This document shows, piece by piece, positions 29,169 through 44,928 of a DNA stretch of 63,048 nucleotides. Location of the stretch: assembly GCA_030429665.1 (NCBI GenBank), contig JAUIEZ010000010.1:1-63048 (forward strand), written 5' to 3'. Position 1 is the stretch's first letter. Each line of letters begins with the position of its first letter. The notes beneath the pieces were generated by a model. That model was not told the origin of the DNA, searched no databases, and saw only the letters and a list, made by a program, of their open reading frames with translations. The position numbers and the translations under genes are program-made. The DNA is from Gammaproteobacteria bacterium (lineage in GTDB: Bacteria; Pseudomonadota; Gammaproteobacteria; Arenicellales; CAJQKF01).

Positions 29169-29813
29169 GTGACCGTCATCGAATCCATTACGCGGGCACG
29201 ACGCTTCGTTTCCGACCTGGGACGGTACATGGGCATCGGTTCGGCCCGTTTCTCGCGAAGCGTCGACAGCGCCGAGAGCCTGACCGAATTCATCGAATCG
29301 CGGGCCAGCCACGTTGCCCAGACGGCACTCTACGGGTACCTGAAGACGCGCTCGGGCACGCGTTTTCCGCAGCTATTCGAGCACCCGGAGTTTCTCCGGT
29401 CCATCAATATCGCCAAATGGCAGGTGTGGGTGGCGTGCGTCGCGGACCTCGCGGTATACGCCGGCGGCCTTCTCTCGGCGCGAGGCGCCACGGACGGACG
29501 CGTCGAGGAGGTCATGCAGGCCGCCATCGGCGAGATATTCGATCGCGCGGGATCGCCGGACGAGGCCGGTGGAGATTACGCGGCCAGTGTCGACGCCGCG
29601 CGCGAGCGCATTGCCGCGTGTGTCTGGTCGAGCGTCGTCGACGACGAGTCCGCGTTCTCGCAAAGCCCTGCCGCGCTGGTGCGCTGGGCGCCCGTCGTCG
29701 ACGAACTCAAGCGTTTCGACGAGGAAATCGTTCGCAACTCCGTGCGCTTTCGCTGGATCGACGTGCGTCGCAGGCTGCGCCGGGTGCTCGACGCGTCGTT
29801 CGTGCTCGATTGA
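29169..29813 (+). CDS. conserved-looking hypothetical protein
   Basis: I do not recognise this 214-residue protein. It is soluble and rich in Arg, Asp, Ala and Ser, with a helical pattern throughout, for example SRASHVAQTALYGYLKTRSG and FLRSINIAKWQVWVACVADL. Its C-terminus reads RWIDVRRRLRRVLDASFVLD. Amino acid use looks like a real protein rather than a shadow frame, and no better frame overlaps it. The GTG at 29169 is the most upstream plausible start. It stands alone between the divergent symporter genes and the urea operon promoter, so context gives little clue. Confidence 0.6.
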   Translation: MTVIESITRARRFVSDLGRYMGIGSARFSRSVDSAESLTEFIESRASHVAQTALYGYLKTRSGTRFPQLFEHPEFLRSINIAKWQVWVACVADLAVYAGGLLSARGATDGRVEEVMQAAIGEIFDRAGSPDEAGGDYAASVDAARERIAACVWSSVVDDESAFSQSPAALVRWAPVVDELKRFDEEIVRNSVRFRWIDVRRRLRRVLDASFVLD

Positions 29814-29905
29814 GCGATTAACCCCCCTTAGCTGTGGGCGACGACATCGACCGGATTGACCGGCCACTCTCGATTGTCGGTTCGCACGGCGCATCGAATC
29901 CGGTC

Positions 29906-29960
29906 GTTGCACCAGGATGAATCATCGTGCTGGTGCAACGCACAGGAAATGGTGCGTTGC
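29906..29960. promoter_or_regulatory. overlapping inverted repeats, candidate NtrC enhancer
   Basis: A perfect inverted pair GTTGCACCAG (29906-29915) and CTGGTGCAAC (29930-29939) is followed by a second pair, GCAACGCAC (29935-29943) and GTGCGTTGC (29952-29960), which reuses the middle arm. The half-sites TGCACC and GGTGCA match NtrC half-sites, though the spacing is wider than the standard dyad. The block lies about 90-140 bp before the predicted start site of the sigma-54 promoter, where enhancers for that polymerase normally sit. Confidence 0.55.
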
Positions 29961-30019
29961 AACACGTCACTGTCGCAATCTTCCGACGAATTTCGTTGAA
30001 AATTGTGCACCGCCACAAG

Positions 30020-30036
30020 TTGGCACGGAGCTTGCT
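30020..30036 (+). promoter_or_regulatory. sigma-54 promoter of the urea operon
   Basis: TTGGCACGGAGCTTGCT matches the RpoN consensus TGGCACG-N4-TTGCW completely. GG at 30022-30023 and GC at 30034-30035 are 12 bp apart, as required. The predicted transcription start is near 30047, giving a leader of about 57 bases before urtA. Sigma-54 with NtrC commonly drives urea uptake and urease in proteobacteria. Confidence 0.85.
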
Positions 30037-30102
30037 CACGTATCTGGCGTAACGATCGACGTTACCGAAAACAATCCCATAAAACCAGATACGGAGTCAT
30101 AT

Positions 30103-31395
30103 ATGACGCGCATGAACGGATCCATCGGCATCGTTGCCGCGGCCTGCCTTGCCGCGACGTGGGGGCTGACCGCGCAAGCTCAGGACGACACCATAAAGGT
30201 TGGCGTGCTGCACTCGTTGTCGGGAACCATGGCAATCAGCGAGACGACCCTGAAGGATACGGTGCTGATGCTCGTGGAGGAGCAGAACAAGAAGGGGGGT
30301 GTGCTTGGCAAGCAGCTGGAGGCGGTCGTTGTCGACCCGGCCTCCGACTGGCCTCTGTTCGCCGAGAAGGCGCGCGAACTGATCGAGAAGGAGAAGGTCG
30401 ACGTGGTGTTCGGCTGCTGGACCTCTGTGTCCCGTAAGTCCGTGCTGCCGGTGTTCGAAGAACTCGACAGCATACTTTTCTACCCGGTCCAATACGAGGG
30501 CGAGGAGTCCTCCAAGAACGTTTTCTACACCGGTGCCGCGCCGAACCAGCAAGCGATTCCGGCGGTCGACTACCTGATGAACGAGATCGGCGTCGAGCGC
30601 TGGGTCCTGGCCGGCACGGACTACGTCTATCCGCGGACAACCAACAAGATCCTCGAGGCCTATCTCACGGCCAAGGGTGTTGCATCCGAGGACATCATGA
30701 TCAACTACACGCCATTCGGACATTCCGATTGGCAGAGTATCGTCGCCGAGATCAAGCAGTTCGGATCGACGGGCAAGAAGACCGCGGTGGTGTCGACCAT
30801 CAACGGCGATGCCAACGTGCCGTTCTACAAGGAACTCGGAAACCAGGAGATCTCCGCGGAGGATATCCCGGTGGTCGCGTTCTCGGTGGGTGAAGAGGAA
30901 CTGTCCGGCATCGATACCGCGCCGCTGGTGGGCCACCTGGCGGCATGGAACTATTTCATGAGCGTGCCCTCCGACGCCAACGACGAATTCATCGCCGCCT
31001 GGCACGAATTCATCGGCGATGAAGCGCGTGTCACCAACGACCCGATGGAAGCGCATTACATCGGCTTCAACATGTGGGTCGAGGCGGTGAACAAGGCGGG
31101 TACGACCGAGCCGTCCGTGGTGCAGGACGCACTCATCGGCGTCGCGGTCCCCAACCTGACCGGCGGCTACTCGTCAATGGCGCCGAATCATCACATCACC
31201 AAGCCCGTGCTGATCGGCGAGATCCAGGACGATGGGCAGTTCGCGGTCGTCTGGGAAACACCCGGTCTCGTGCTCGGCGACGAATGGTCGGATTACCTCG
31301 AAGGCTCCCGCGACCTGATCGCCGACTGGCGCGCGCCGCTGTCCTGCGGCAACTACAACGTGAAGACGGCCAAGTGCTCGGGCCAGAACTACTGA
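30103..31395 (+). CDS. urtA: urea ABC transporter substrate-binding protein UrtA
   Basis: UrtA is the periplasmic receptor of the high-affinity urea importer. The 430-residue precursor begins MTRMNGSIGIVAAACLAATW with signal cleavage likely after residue 26. The mature protein starts DTIKVGVLHSLSGTMAISET, the UrtA hallmark. Other family stretches are VVFGCWTSVSRKSVLPVFEE, LFYPVQYEGEESSKNVFYTG and YVYPRTTNKIL. The start is ATG 30103, with ACGGAG upstream and the predicted sigma-54 start site about 57 bases before it. An in-frame upstream extension crosses the promoter and is excluded. It is first in the urtABCDE-ureDABCEFG operon and separated from urtB by two terminators. Confidence 0.95.
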   Translation: MTRMNGSIGIVAAACLAATWGLTAQAQDDTIKVGVLHSLSGTMAISETTLKDTVLMLVEEQNKKGGVLGKQLEAVVVDPASDWPLFAEKARELIEKEKVDVVFGCWTSVSRKSVLPVFEELDSILFYPVQYEGEESSKNVFYTGAAPNQQAIPAVDYLMNEIGVERWVLAGTDYVYPRTTNKILEAYLTAKGVASEDIMINYTPFGHSDWQSIVAEIKQFGSTGKKTAVVSTINGDANVPFYKELGNQEISAEDIPVVAFSVGEEELSGIDTAPLVGHLAAWNYFMSVPSDANDEFIAAWHEFIGDEARVTNDPMEAHYIGFNMWVEAVNKAGTTEPSVVQDALIGVAVPNLTGGYSSMAPNHHITKPVLIGEIQDDGQFAVVWETPGLVLGDEWSDYLEGSRDLIADWRAPLSCGNYNVKTAKCSGQNY

Positions 31396-40847: not shown

Positions 40848-40880
40848 GGAGTGGTTCGTATCGGCCGAAAGCATCGCTTT

Positions 40881-40917
40881 GGTGCAATGGGCGGTCCGTT
40901 GTGCAGTCGTGGTGCGA
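40881..40917. promoter_or_regulatory. candidate activator sites upstream of the second sigma-54 promoter
   Basis: Three GTGC-containing motifs in direct orientation, GGTGCA at 40881, GTGCA at 40901 and GGTGCG at 40911, lie about 85-120 bp before the predicted start near 41002. They resemble the GGTGCA half-sites upstream of urtA and NtrC half-sites in general. No full dyad is formed, so the assignment is weak. Confidence 0.35.
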
Positions 40918-40975
40918 TCGCGTCGTTGTCAGCCCCGTTGGCGGCCCGAGCGGTGCCGGTGCGGCGCGCTCCGGG

Positions 40976-40991
40976 TGGCACGCAACTTGCT
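40976..40991 (+). promoter_or_regulatory. sigma-54 promoter of the glucosylglycerate genes
   Basis: TGGCACGCAACTTGCT is a complete match to the RpoN consensus TGGCACG-N4-TTGCW. GG at 40977-40978 and GC at 40989-40990 are 12 bp apart. The predicted start is near 41002, leaving about 37 bases before the phosphatase ATG at 41039 and ruling out the in-frame start at 40901. It is the second such promoter in the window. Confidence 0.82.
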
Positions 40992-41038
40992 GCCCCATTT
41001 GTGAACGTAACAGCGTCGCGATCCGCGCCCGAAGACCG

Positions 41039-41965
41039 ATGACTGCGAATTTCATGTCCATGACCCGAGCGAGCACGCGATATCCGCCCATCGGCATCGA
41101 GCGGGCGGTCGACGTGCTCGGCTTGGGCGCGGGGCCGCGACCGCGCTGGATCGTCGTGACCGACCTCGACGGAACGCTGCTCGACTCGCAAGACTACACC
41201 GCCACGCCGGCACTGCCGGTGCTGCGATCGCTCGCCAGGGCCGGTATCCCGGTGGTCCTGTCAACGAGCAAGACGCGCGTCGAGGTAGAGGCGGTTCGCG
41301 AAGAACTCGACAATCGCGATCCTTTCATCGTCGAGAACGGCGGCGCCATTTTCGCGCCGGAGCGGTTGTTCGAGGACCTGCCGTCAAAGTGGGAATGCAG
41401 GGACGGATACACCGCCCTGATCCTGGGCACCCCCTACGCGGACATTCGCGCGGTGCTCGGGACCTTGCGCGAGCGATACCGGTTCGAAGGTTTCGCGGAC
41501 ATCGACGAGGACAGGTTGCGGCGAATGACCGGTCTGTCCGCCCGGGACGCGGCCCGCGCCCGATGTCGCGAGTTCGGTGAACCAATCGTTTGGCGAGACG
41601 GTTCCGGCGCATTGACAAAGTTCACCGCCAAGCTCGCCGAACATGGGCTCACCGTCAAGCGCGGCGGTCGCTTCCTGCACGTGGACGGTGGATCGGACAA
41701 GGCGCGCGCATTGCGGTCATTGCGCGAGGAATACCAGAACCTGTGGCGTTGCCCGACTCGGGTCATCGCGCTTGGCGACAGCGACAACGATGCCGCCATG
41801 CTTTCGGCGGCCGACCTGGCGGTGCTCGTACCCTCGACGTTTCATTCGATGCCGGTGGTGGAGAATCCGTCGATCATGCTGGCGGCGGAGCCGGGGCCCG
41901 CGGGTTGGGCGGGCGTGATTGGCCCGCTGGTGGAAAGGTACCTGGAGCACGACGCGGATGGGTGA
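41039..41965 (+). CDS. glucosyl/mannosyl-3-phosphoglycerate phosphatase (HAD family)
   Basis: The enzyme would remove phosphate from glucosyl-3-phosphoglycerate to give the compatible solute glucosylglycerate. The 308-residue protein is a Cof/MPGP-type HAD phosphatase with the nucleophile motif DLDGTLLD (from residue 42), a Ser/Thr motif VVLSTSKTR, FIVENGGAIF, a cap domain, and the acidic metal motif ALGDSDNDAAML. By similarity it is in the mannosyl-3-phosphoglycerate phosphatase family, which includes enzymes acting on the glucosyl form; the GT81 synthase next door favours glucose. The start is ATG 41039; ATG 41054 is possible. It overlaps the synthase gene by eight bases. Confidence 0.85.
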   Translation: MTANFMSMTRASTRYPPIGIERAVDVLGLGAGPRPRWIVVTDLDGTLLDSQDYTATPALPVLRSLARAGIPVVLSTSKTRVEVEAVREELDNRDPFIVENGGAIFAPERLFEDLPSKWECRDGYTALILGTPYADIRAVLGTLRERYRFEGFADIDEDRLRRMTGLSARDAARARCREFGEPIVWRDGSGALTKFTAKLAEHGLTVKRGGRFLHVDGGSDKARALRSLREEYQNLWRCPTRVIALGDSDNDAAMLSAADLAVLVPSTFHSMPVVENPSIMLAAEPGPAGWAGVIGPLVERYLEHDADG

Positions 41966-43184
41966 CTTTTACCAGAACGGGATCATTACCACGCTGCACA
42001 ACCTTTCCGATCGACCGCTGCCGGACATCGAACGCGAGCTACGTGATTTCTCCCGGGAAAGGCCCATTGCGCTGGTGCTCCCCGCGCTGTTCTCCGAGTT
42101 GCAGGCCGAGGCGCTGCCCCACATTGTCTCCTGCCTGGCCGAAGTGGACTACGTCGGCGAGATCATCATCGGATTGGATCGAGCCTCGGCGGAAGACTAC
42201 CAGGCGGCGCTGGAGTTCTTCGCCCGATTGCCGCAGCCGCATCGCGTACTGTGGAACGACGGCCCGCGGCTGCGCGGCGTGGACGAAGCGCTGCAGCGCG
42301 AATCTCTCGCGCCGCGCGAGATGGGAAAGGGGCGCAACGTCTGGTATTGCCTTGGCTACGTGCTTGCCGCCGGAAACGCCGAGGCCATCGCGCTGCACGA
42401 CTGCGACATTCGAACCTACGACCGGTCCCTGTTGGCGCGCCTGGTCTATCCTGTCGCCAATCCGTCGTTCAGCTACGAGTTTTGCAAGGGCTTCTACGCC
42501 CGCGTCGCCGACGGAAAGATAAACGGTCGGGTCAGCCGATTGCTGATGACGCCGCTGTTGAGGTCCCTGAAGAAGATATTCGGCCATCTCGAGTACCTGG
42601 AGTACCTGGACAGCTACCGCTACCCCCTCGCGGGAGAGTTCTCGATGCGCCGGGACGTCATCAAGGATCTTCGCATTCCCAGTGACTGGGGGCTGGAGAT
42701 CGGCGTGCTCTCGGAGGTGCATCGCAATTTCTCCACCAACAGGTTGTGCCAGGTCGACATCGCCGATCGTTACGATCACAAGCACCAGCCCTTGTCGCCG
42801 TTCAACGACGAAGGCGGTCTGTCGAAAATGTCGATCGACATACTCAAGGCCGTGTATCGCAAACTTGCCACCCACGGCGTGGTGCTGAGTCGCGAGACGT
42901 TTCGCTCGATCAAGGCCAGTTACTTCAGGATCGCCCTCGATTTCATCGAGACCTATCACAACGACGCGTTGATCAACGGGTTGCACCTGGATATCCATCG
43001 CGAGGAACAGGCCGTCGAGTTGTTTGCCGGCAACATCATGAAGGCCGGTGACGCGTTCCTGGAGAACCCGATGGAAACGCCCTTCATCCCGAGCTGGAAC
43101 CGGGTAAGAAGCGCCATGCCCGATGTCTTTGATCGCATCCGGGACGCCGTGGACGAGGACCACGCCCAGTTCGGTACTGCCTGA
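41958..43184 (+). CDS. gpgS: glucosyl-3-phosphoglycerate synthase (GT81)
   Basis: This transferase would join glucose from a nucleotide sugar to 3-phosphoglycerate, the first step to glucosylglycerate. The 408-residue product starts [19 protein letters not shown] and has a retaining GT-A fold with [13 protein letters not shown], the [12 protein letters not shown] substrate loop and the metal-binding DCD at residues 148-150. [20 protein letters not shown] and [13 protein letters not shown] are further GT81 landmarks. The length fits bacterial and archaeal GpgS proteins. The ATG lies inside the phosphatase gene's last codons, and the phosphorylase gene follows after one base. Confidence 0.9.
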
Positions 43185-43185
43185 G

Positions 43186-44928
43186 ATGCCGGAGGAAAGC
43201 GCCCGGTCGGAACTACGGCACCGGCTGATCGCCCACCTGGCGGTCATCTACCCCGACGCGGACCACGAAACGCTCGCCACCCGCATCGTCGAGGCGATGC
43301 GACTCGATTCCGTCTCCTCGATTCCCGCCGCTCACCGCAACCATTGGGACCAGGGTGACATCATCCTGATTACCTACGGCGACACCATCAGCACGGACGG
43401 TGAGCATCCACTGTCGACGCTCAAATCGTTCATCGACGAGTGGCTGGCCGCGCTGGTGAACTGCGTCCACGTGCTGCCGTTCTTTCCGTGGAGCTCGGAC
43501 GACGGGTTCGCGGTGATCGACTACGTGAGCGTCAACGACCATATCGGCGACTGGGAAGACGTCGAGGCCATTTCCGGACGTTATCGGCTGATGGCGGACC
43601 TGGTGCTCAACCATTGCTCCAGCCGATCGGCCTGGTTCGAGAATTTCAAGCAGGACAGCGATCCTGGTCGGGACTACTTCCGGGTGCGACGGAGCGATGA
43701 CGACGTCTCCCGGGTGACACGCCCACGGTCCACGCCGCTTTTCACGCCGTTTCGCACGGTAAACGGCGACGTCGAGGTCTGGTGTACTTTCGGGCCCGAC
43801 CAGGTGGATTTCGATTTTTCCAATCCGTCGGTGCTGTTGGAGTTCGTTCGCATCGTGCGTTTCTACCTCGACCGCGGCGTTCGCATCTTTCGTCTCGACG
43901 CGGTGGCTTTTCTCTGGAAGGAGTCCGGCAGCGAATGCATCAACCTGCCCCAGACCCACGAGATCGTCCGGCTGCTTCGAACCCTGGTGGAATTCGCCGT
44001 CCACGACGCCATCCTGGTAACCGAGACCAACATCCCCAACCGCGAAAACCTGAGCTATTTCGGCAACGCCAACGAAGCTCACGCCATCTACAACTTCGCG
44101 CTGCCGCCGCTGCTGGTCAACACGCTGCTGACCGGCGATTGCCGCCACCTCAAATCCTGGTTGATGAGCATGCCGCCGGCGCAGAACGGCACCAGCTACC
44201 TGAACTTCATCGCCTCGCACGACGGCATCGGTCTGCGTCCGGCGGAGGGACTGCTCGACGAAGGAGAGATCGACGCGATGCTCGGCGCCATGCGCGACTT
44301 CGGCGGCCTGGTTTCCTGGCGTTCCGATGCGGACGGCAACGCGCGTCCCTACGAGATAAACATCAGTCTTTATGATGCCCTGGCCGGTACGCTGTCGGGC
44401 CGCGACGAATGGCAGGAGGAGCGCTTTATTTGCGCCCACGTGATCATGATGTCACTGGAAGGAATCCCCGCCTTCTACATTCATAGCCTGCTGGCCACCG
44501 GCAATGACCACGAAAGAGTGCGCCACAGCAATCACAACCGCCATATCAACCGGCGGCGGTATGATCGCGACGAACTGAACGCGATACTCGAAGCCGGTGG
44601 TGAACAACGCCGCGTGCTCGATCGCTTGCGCCGGCTGATCAGCACGCGTAAACGACAGGCGGCATTTCATCCGAATGCCACGCAGTTCACGCTGCACCTG
44701 GGCGAGGCGCTGTTCGCCTTTTGGCGCCAAAGCGTCGACCGGCGGCAGAGCATATTCTGCATCTTCAACGTGAGCGACCGGGTCCAGCCGTTGTTGTTGT
44801 CCGACGTCAACCTGGTTGGCACCGACGCCTGGCGCGACCTGATCGGCGGCGCGCTGTACACGGACCACCGCGAGCGTATCGACCTGGCGCCCTACCAGAG
44901 CTTGTGGATCAGCAACGTGGACGATTGA
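43186..44928 (+). CDS. GH13 glycoside phosphorylase, probably glucosylglycerate phosphorylase
   Basis: The enzyme would split glucosylglycerate with phosphate into glucose-1-phosphate and D-glycerate, recycling the solute. The 580-residue protein belongs to the sucrose-phosphorylase subfamily GH13_18. It keeps the family motifs [17 protein letters not shown], the nucleophile Asp238 in IFRLDAVAF, the acid/base Glu280 in VTETNIPN and the stabiliser Asp346 in [12 protein letters not shown]13_18 also contains sucrose and glucosylglycerol phosphorylases. Its place directly after the phosphatase and GpgS genes makes glucosylglycerate the best guess. The ATG at 43186 follows the synthase stop by one base. 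Confidence 0.82.

Follow-up and report, generated by a model that had tools for sequence, protein, structure and literature searches.

A sigma-54 promoter with probable paired NtrC sites upstream of the urea transporter gene urtA in a draft gammaproteobacterial genome

Analysis of a 63,048-nucleotide stretch of DNA, referred to below as the window, found upstream of urtA what is, judging from its sequence, a sigma-54 promoter of the NtrC type, a kind already described for urt genes. We consider it likely that this is a nitrogen-controlled urt-ure promoter at which two NtrC dimers would act on sigma-54 polymerase through DNA looping and ATP-driven opening. The window is one of the 245 contigs, C198, of a draft genome totalling 5.0 Mb. 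The gene after urtA scores above the UrtB family cut-off, genes for UreD and urease alpha follow downstream, and the intergenic stretch before urtA measures 289 bp (29814-30102). Among the best 80 of at least 596 UrtA matches, the four best named relatives belong to a Solemya symbiont, two Marinobacterium and one Vibrio, and matches further down the list come from other classes too. The features of the locus are collected in Table 1.

Table 1. Features of the urtA upstream region, in window coordinates
Feature	Sequence	Position	Strand	Evidence
urtA, urea ABC transporter substrate-binding protein		30103..31395	+	TIGR03407, 560.7 bits vs cut-off 492.75
Sigma-54 promoter (-24/-12)	TGGCACGGAGCTTGCT	30021..30036	+	12/12 scored letters, GG and GC at fixed spacing
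Proposed NtrC site 1 (half-site A and weak partner)	TGCACCAGGATGAATCA	29908..29924, centre 29916	+	7/7 and 4/7 box letters, normal spacing
Proposed NtrC site 2 (half-site C)	CGCACAGGAAATGGTGCG	29939..29956, centre ~29948	+	outer half 6/7, 42 bp from A
Half-site B, extra half-site in spacer	TGGTGCA on + strand	29931..29937	-	7/7 letters
Inverted repeat A/B		29905..29940	.	perfect 11-nt arms, 29905-29915 and 29930-29940
Near-palindrome B/C, 34 bp		29931..29964	.	arms 12/13 complementary; perfect 10-nt core, 29934-29943/29952-29961

A -24/-12 element before urtA had been claimed in a preliminary description of this DNA, and the claim is upheld. The element, TGGCACGGAGCTTGCT, ends 66 nt before the urtA ATG and carries every scored letter, while the runner-up in 29814-30102 scores 8 against its 12. 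A score of 12 is reached at two sites in the window with both strands scanned. At one mismatch or fewer the pattern matches twice in the window, with a shuffle mean of 1.58 and 47 of 100 shuffles reaching 2, and because this window-alone count is at the shuffle level, the sigma-54 case rests on position, on contrast within the genome, and on relatives. Genome-wide, TGGCACN5TTGCW has 11 sites, compared with 3 for the reversed pattern, and the genome encodes RpoN (TIGR02395, 440.8 bits vs cut-off 277.35). UrtA of this type occurs in 9 of 109 genomes of the same order, its own genome counted. Five of the eight other urtA promoters score at least 9/12 (L018, L196, L198-L200), with L198-L200 identical in the upstream sequence printed; no scored site lies before urtA in the remaining three (L019, L197, L201). 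In a narrower comparison, none of three genomes at genus and family level (G001-G003) showed a UrtA match at E 1e-100. Aligning four same-order upstream regions globally was not informative; two of the four, L019 and L020, lack a usable promoter.

Deduced from the -12 element, transcription would start at about 30046-30047. A 9-nt perfect inverted repeat (30039-30047/30085-30093) spans this predicted start and ends beside the ribosome-binding site. A leader hairpin was considered and rejected, as RNA 30046-30120 gives z +0.93, with 168 of 200 shuffles equalling or bettering its fold. The sequence GTGCACCG, at 30005-30012 just 5' of the -24 element, is also found before the -24 element of the genome's own glnA, and might be a weak promoter-proximal NtrC site.

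The second exact sigma-54 site in the window, TGGCACGCAACTTGCT at 40976-40991, has half-sites at 40880, 40899 and 40910. In this region (40880-44925) the site is followed by a gene for an MPGP-family phosphatase, above the TIGR01486 cut-off, and by GpgS-like and sucrose-phosphorylase-like genes, both below cut-off. The locus possibly represents nitrogen-regulated synthesis of glucosylglycerate.

Farther upstream of urtA, the NtrC-like half-sites claimed earlier are present, with complete agreement to the NtrC box in A and B and six letters of seven in C. Half-site A is TGCACCA at 29908, and site 1 can be read as TGCACCA-gga-TGAATCA, with an inner half of 4/7 letters (chance of at least 4, 0.07). 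Half-site C is TGGTGCG at 29950, and the inner half of site 2 has 0/7 letters at normal spacing, 4/7 with one extra bp. The partner of half-site B at normal spacing has 3/7 letters. Counted between starts, A and B are 23 bp apart and A and C 42 bp, a layout of 0/23/42. The published 17-bp NtrC box is given as TGCACCAnnnTGGTGCA in PMC8743547; the best normal-spacing site at urtA differs from it at 3 of 14 letters, all in one half, and no full normal NtrC dyad was found at urtA.

Such dyads do occur elsewhere in this genome, which encodes both NtrC, with GAFTGA in its translation, and NtrB, each above its curated cut-off. Normal dyads TGCACAAGAATAGTGCA and CGCACTATTATAGTGCA, with centres 30 bp apart, precede glnA; another, TGCACCATGATGGTGCA, lies at the start of ntrB; and the amtB-type operon, whose sigma-54 site was read by eye, has two such sites 53 bp apart upstream. 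NtrC sites of this cell therefore follow TGCACCAnnnTGGTGCA. Probably another NtrC target is a polyamine-type ABC transporter (L209, L177; G000:C1), which combines an exact sigma-54 site with a pair of NtrC-like half-sites at a distance of 42 bp. Its promoter with the 42-bp pair is not conserved, a scored sigma-54 site being found in none of five orthologues (26 genomes; one orthologue from the same genus). The names glnA, amtB, polyamine-type transporter and, below, phasin-like gene are what we take these genes to be from their sequences.

How the half-sites are spaced in general was surveyed in urtA upstream regions and in promoters anchored on sigma-54 sites. The UrtA search gave 30 loci for 66 positive genomes among 369. 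Removal of the window, of L008 (same site), and of L021 (41% identity) from 116 UrtA-match loci left 113 upstream regions, which contain 220 half-sites, whereas shuffles average 94.3 and reach 122 at most; in this count, as in the spacing and triple scans below, shuffles keep base composition only. From 120 upstream regions (113 + 7), a requirement for a sigma-54 score of at least 9/12 and enough upstream sequence left 56, and dropping two duplicates gave a selected set of 54 urtA promoters, window included. At up to three mismatches, normal spacing (half-sites starting at a distance of 10 bp) is seen in 15 of the 54, other spacings in 0-7, with a shuffle value of 0.26. The second commonest spacing, in 7 promoters, is 42 bp.

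We also searched 369 genomes of the same class for GCACCA...TGGTGC upstream of sigma-54 sites, over spacing ranges of 10-40 and 27-57 bp; the reversed-pattern control is zero in the rows listed for both searches. The 10-40 bp range returned 18 places, of which 12, counted by eye, begin with a normal dyad. Among the 18 places of the 27-57 bp range, nine have a spacing of 40-42 bp (P 1.6e-5 against an even spread, for a range chosen after the data were seen, with gene context unclear at several such places). At these nine, TGGTGCA is matched at a mean of 4.33/7 in the sequence 10 bp inward of the left half, compared with at most 2.89 at other offsets, and TGCACCA at a mean of 3.0/7 in the sequence 10 bp inward of the right half, compared with at most 2.44. 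These values come from the 27-57 bp search alone; the means of 4.77 and 3.62 from an earlier form of the test, on 13 promoters, were inflated, as four of the 13 came from the 10-40 bp search alone and three of those four are printed with a normal dyad. We read a half-site pair 40-42 bp apart as, probably, the outer halves belonging to two NtrC dimers spaced by 30-32 bp. Two further urtA promoters, L096 and L192, can be read as having a dyad widened by one bp, a spacing shown by none of the places parsed from the 10-40 and 27-57 bp searches. Layouts of half-sites differ among the urtA promoters of relatives.

Since the A-C distance of 42 bp falls in the 40-42 bp class, whose nine places have inner half-sites at the positions that two dimers would require, the enhancer likely consists of two NtrC dimers. 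From the observed sequence elements, their statistics, and the ntrC, ntrB and rpoN genes, we infer the binding, phosphorylation, activation, looping, transcription start and any role of half-site B set out here. Under nitrogen limitation NtrB would phosphorylate NtrC, and two NtrC dimers would occupy sites centred near 29916 and 29948 (about -131 and -99), the outer half of each site being strong and the inner half weak or shifted. With centres 32 bp apart, or three helical turns, the dimers would stand in helical phase and help to build an active NtrC oligomer, which would contact sigma-54 polymerase at 30021-30036 via DNA looping and use ATP to open the promoter. Half-site B, in the spacer, may serve NtrC as an auxiliary site or as a competing one. 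Dependence of an NtrC promoter on helical phase is cited for nifLA in PMC7408454.

The preliminary description had called the spacing of the half-sites unusual, with a possibly different activator or arrangement. The first point holds for A and B, whose 23 bp make no normal dyad, and fails for A, which has a weak partner at normal spacing, and for A and C, whose 42 bp belong to the commonest spacing class; for the same two reasons another activator, though possible, is not needed. The two-dimer reading thus likely resolves most of the spacing anomaly. Three things fall outside it: half-site B, the B/C palindrome beyond the half-sites, and the inner half of site 2, which fits only with one extra bp. 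Also weighing against the model as a whole are the variable half-site layouts of relatives, the three same-order urtA promoters with no scored sigma-54 site, and the polyamine-transporter promoter, whose orthologues do not conserve it.

The three arms forming two overlapping inverted repeats, also claimed earlier, are confirmed, with perfect cores of 11 and 10 nt and a middle arm common to both; imperfect arms extend to 16 nt (88%) and 13 nt (92%). Of 1000 shuffles of 29814-30102 that keep dinucleotides, ten have a best arm score of at least 11, and none has a pair of arms with scores of 9 or more and a middle arm in common. In part the repeats would arise from NtrC half-sites being inverted copies of each other. 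When A, B and C are kept fixed, in shuffles that keep base composition only, 294 of 20000 attain the A/B extension and 0 of 4000 the B/C perfect run; the half-sites nearly account for the A/B repeat, and the B/C repeat is longer than they account for. Conservation of the repeats, the expectation attached to the earlier claim, is not seen, as no examined relative has the same perfect arms. A further perfect inverted repeat of 10 nt (29848-29857/29897-29906) overlaps arm A by 2 bp with its right arm.

The length of the B/C run is a point in favor of a second regulator that, with NtrC at A, would bind the 34-bp palindrome or the CGTTGCAMCA arms and add a signal, for example as repressor or co-activator. 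A phasin-like gene (L233 1029-1049, G000:C87) has in its promoter region the 15-mer CGTGTTGCAACGCAC, the reverse complement of window 29952-29966, but this match, at E 1.98, is at chance level. We regard the second regulator as unlikely, considering that CGTTGCAMCA fails as a regulon motif, matching 30 times in the genome, including 3 times at this locus, while its reversed form matches 44 times, and that 29840-29970 has no genome match better than E 0.16, self and its own inverted repeat aside, which also led us to reject a repeat element.

A weak equivalent of half-site B lies at +23 in a single urtA promoter of the same order, L018, where half-sites stand at 0/23/41 with 1, 2 and 1 mismatches, against 0/23/42 in the window. 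In a scan for triples over the 54 promoters, at up to four mismatches, an offset of 23 is found in 5, window included, and other offsets in 0-3. At up to five mismatches offset 23 is found in 6 and offset 10 in 8; at up to six the counts are 8 for offset 23, 12 for offset 10, and 7 each for offsets 12 and 27, so that 23 is no longer distinct. Together, counterpart and scan are suggestive only. The 17-bp footprints of NtrC dimers on A and B would overlap by 4 bp. It is a quite improbable proposal that the 0/23/42 set forms a three-state enhancer, with dimers on A and B mutually exclusive and with B, or a second regulator bound to the 34-bp palindrome, tuning or braking urtA at high levels of phosphorylated NtrC.

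A different enhancer-binding protein might instead drive a real sigma-54 promoter at which the NtrC-like half-sites are incidental. The genome has at least six further long activator-like matches (C74, C69, C216, C145, C42, C220), and urtA, as noted, is without a full normal dyad; but the enrichment of half-sites, the peak at normal spacing and the 40-42 bp class, together with NtrC control of urt genes as published in PMC5343134 and PMC7801951, make this very improbable. Finally, that the arms serve as alternative hairpins, in read-through RNA from upstream or in extruded DNA, is extremely improbable. As DNA, 29900-29970 does fold better than 200 of 200 shuffles (z -4.90), and 29840-29975, folded as RNA, outdoes 199 of 200 (z -3.32), but any inverted repeat gives a good single-strand fold. 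The arms lie upstream of the predicted sigma-54 start, a scan of 29650-30200 found no sigma-70-type promoter, the sole terminator-like site (29971-29988) is at shuffle level, and Rfam has nothing matching 29800-30200 up to E 10.

In E. coli, the NtrC sites of glnA are 32 bp apart. The glnA enhancers of E. coli and of this genome (30 bp) resemble the arrangement proposed for urtA in having two NtrC sites about 30-32 bp apart; the genome's own glnA has two normal dyads, whereas each urtA site has one weak or shifted half. PMC7408454 and PMC3870243 describe the E. coli glnA enhancer as two NtrC sites upstream of a sigma-54 promoter. At E. coli glnAp2, according to PMC3870243, low-affinity governor sites may limit glnA at high phosphorylated NtrC. 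Like half-site B, these are extra weak NtrC sites beside the main two; unlike B, which lies between the two main sites, they are nearer the promoter. NtrC control of urt/ure operons in Proteobacteria has been published in PMC5343134 and, for P. putida, in PMC7801951. The present locus is like those operons in target genes and in class of regulator, and sigma-54 sites precede many of the surveyed urtA genes; it differs in its strong outer halves 42 bp apart, its extra half-site B, and the shifted inner half of site 2.

Taken alone, the urtA promoter is ordinary: it would put urea uptake, in what is probably a gammaproteobacterial species, under the general nitrogen circuit. The survey suggests a rule for reading such promoters, by which a pair of NtrC half-sites separated by 40-42 bp probably marks the outer halves of two dimers in phase.
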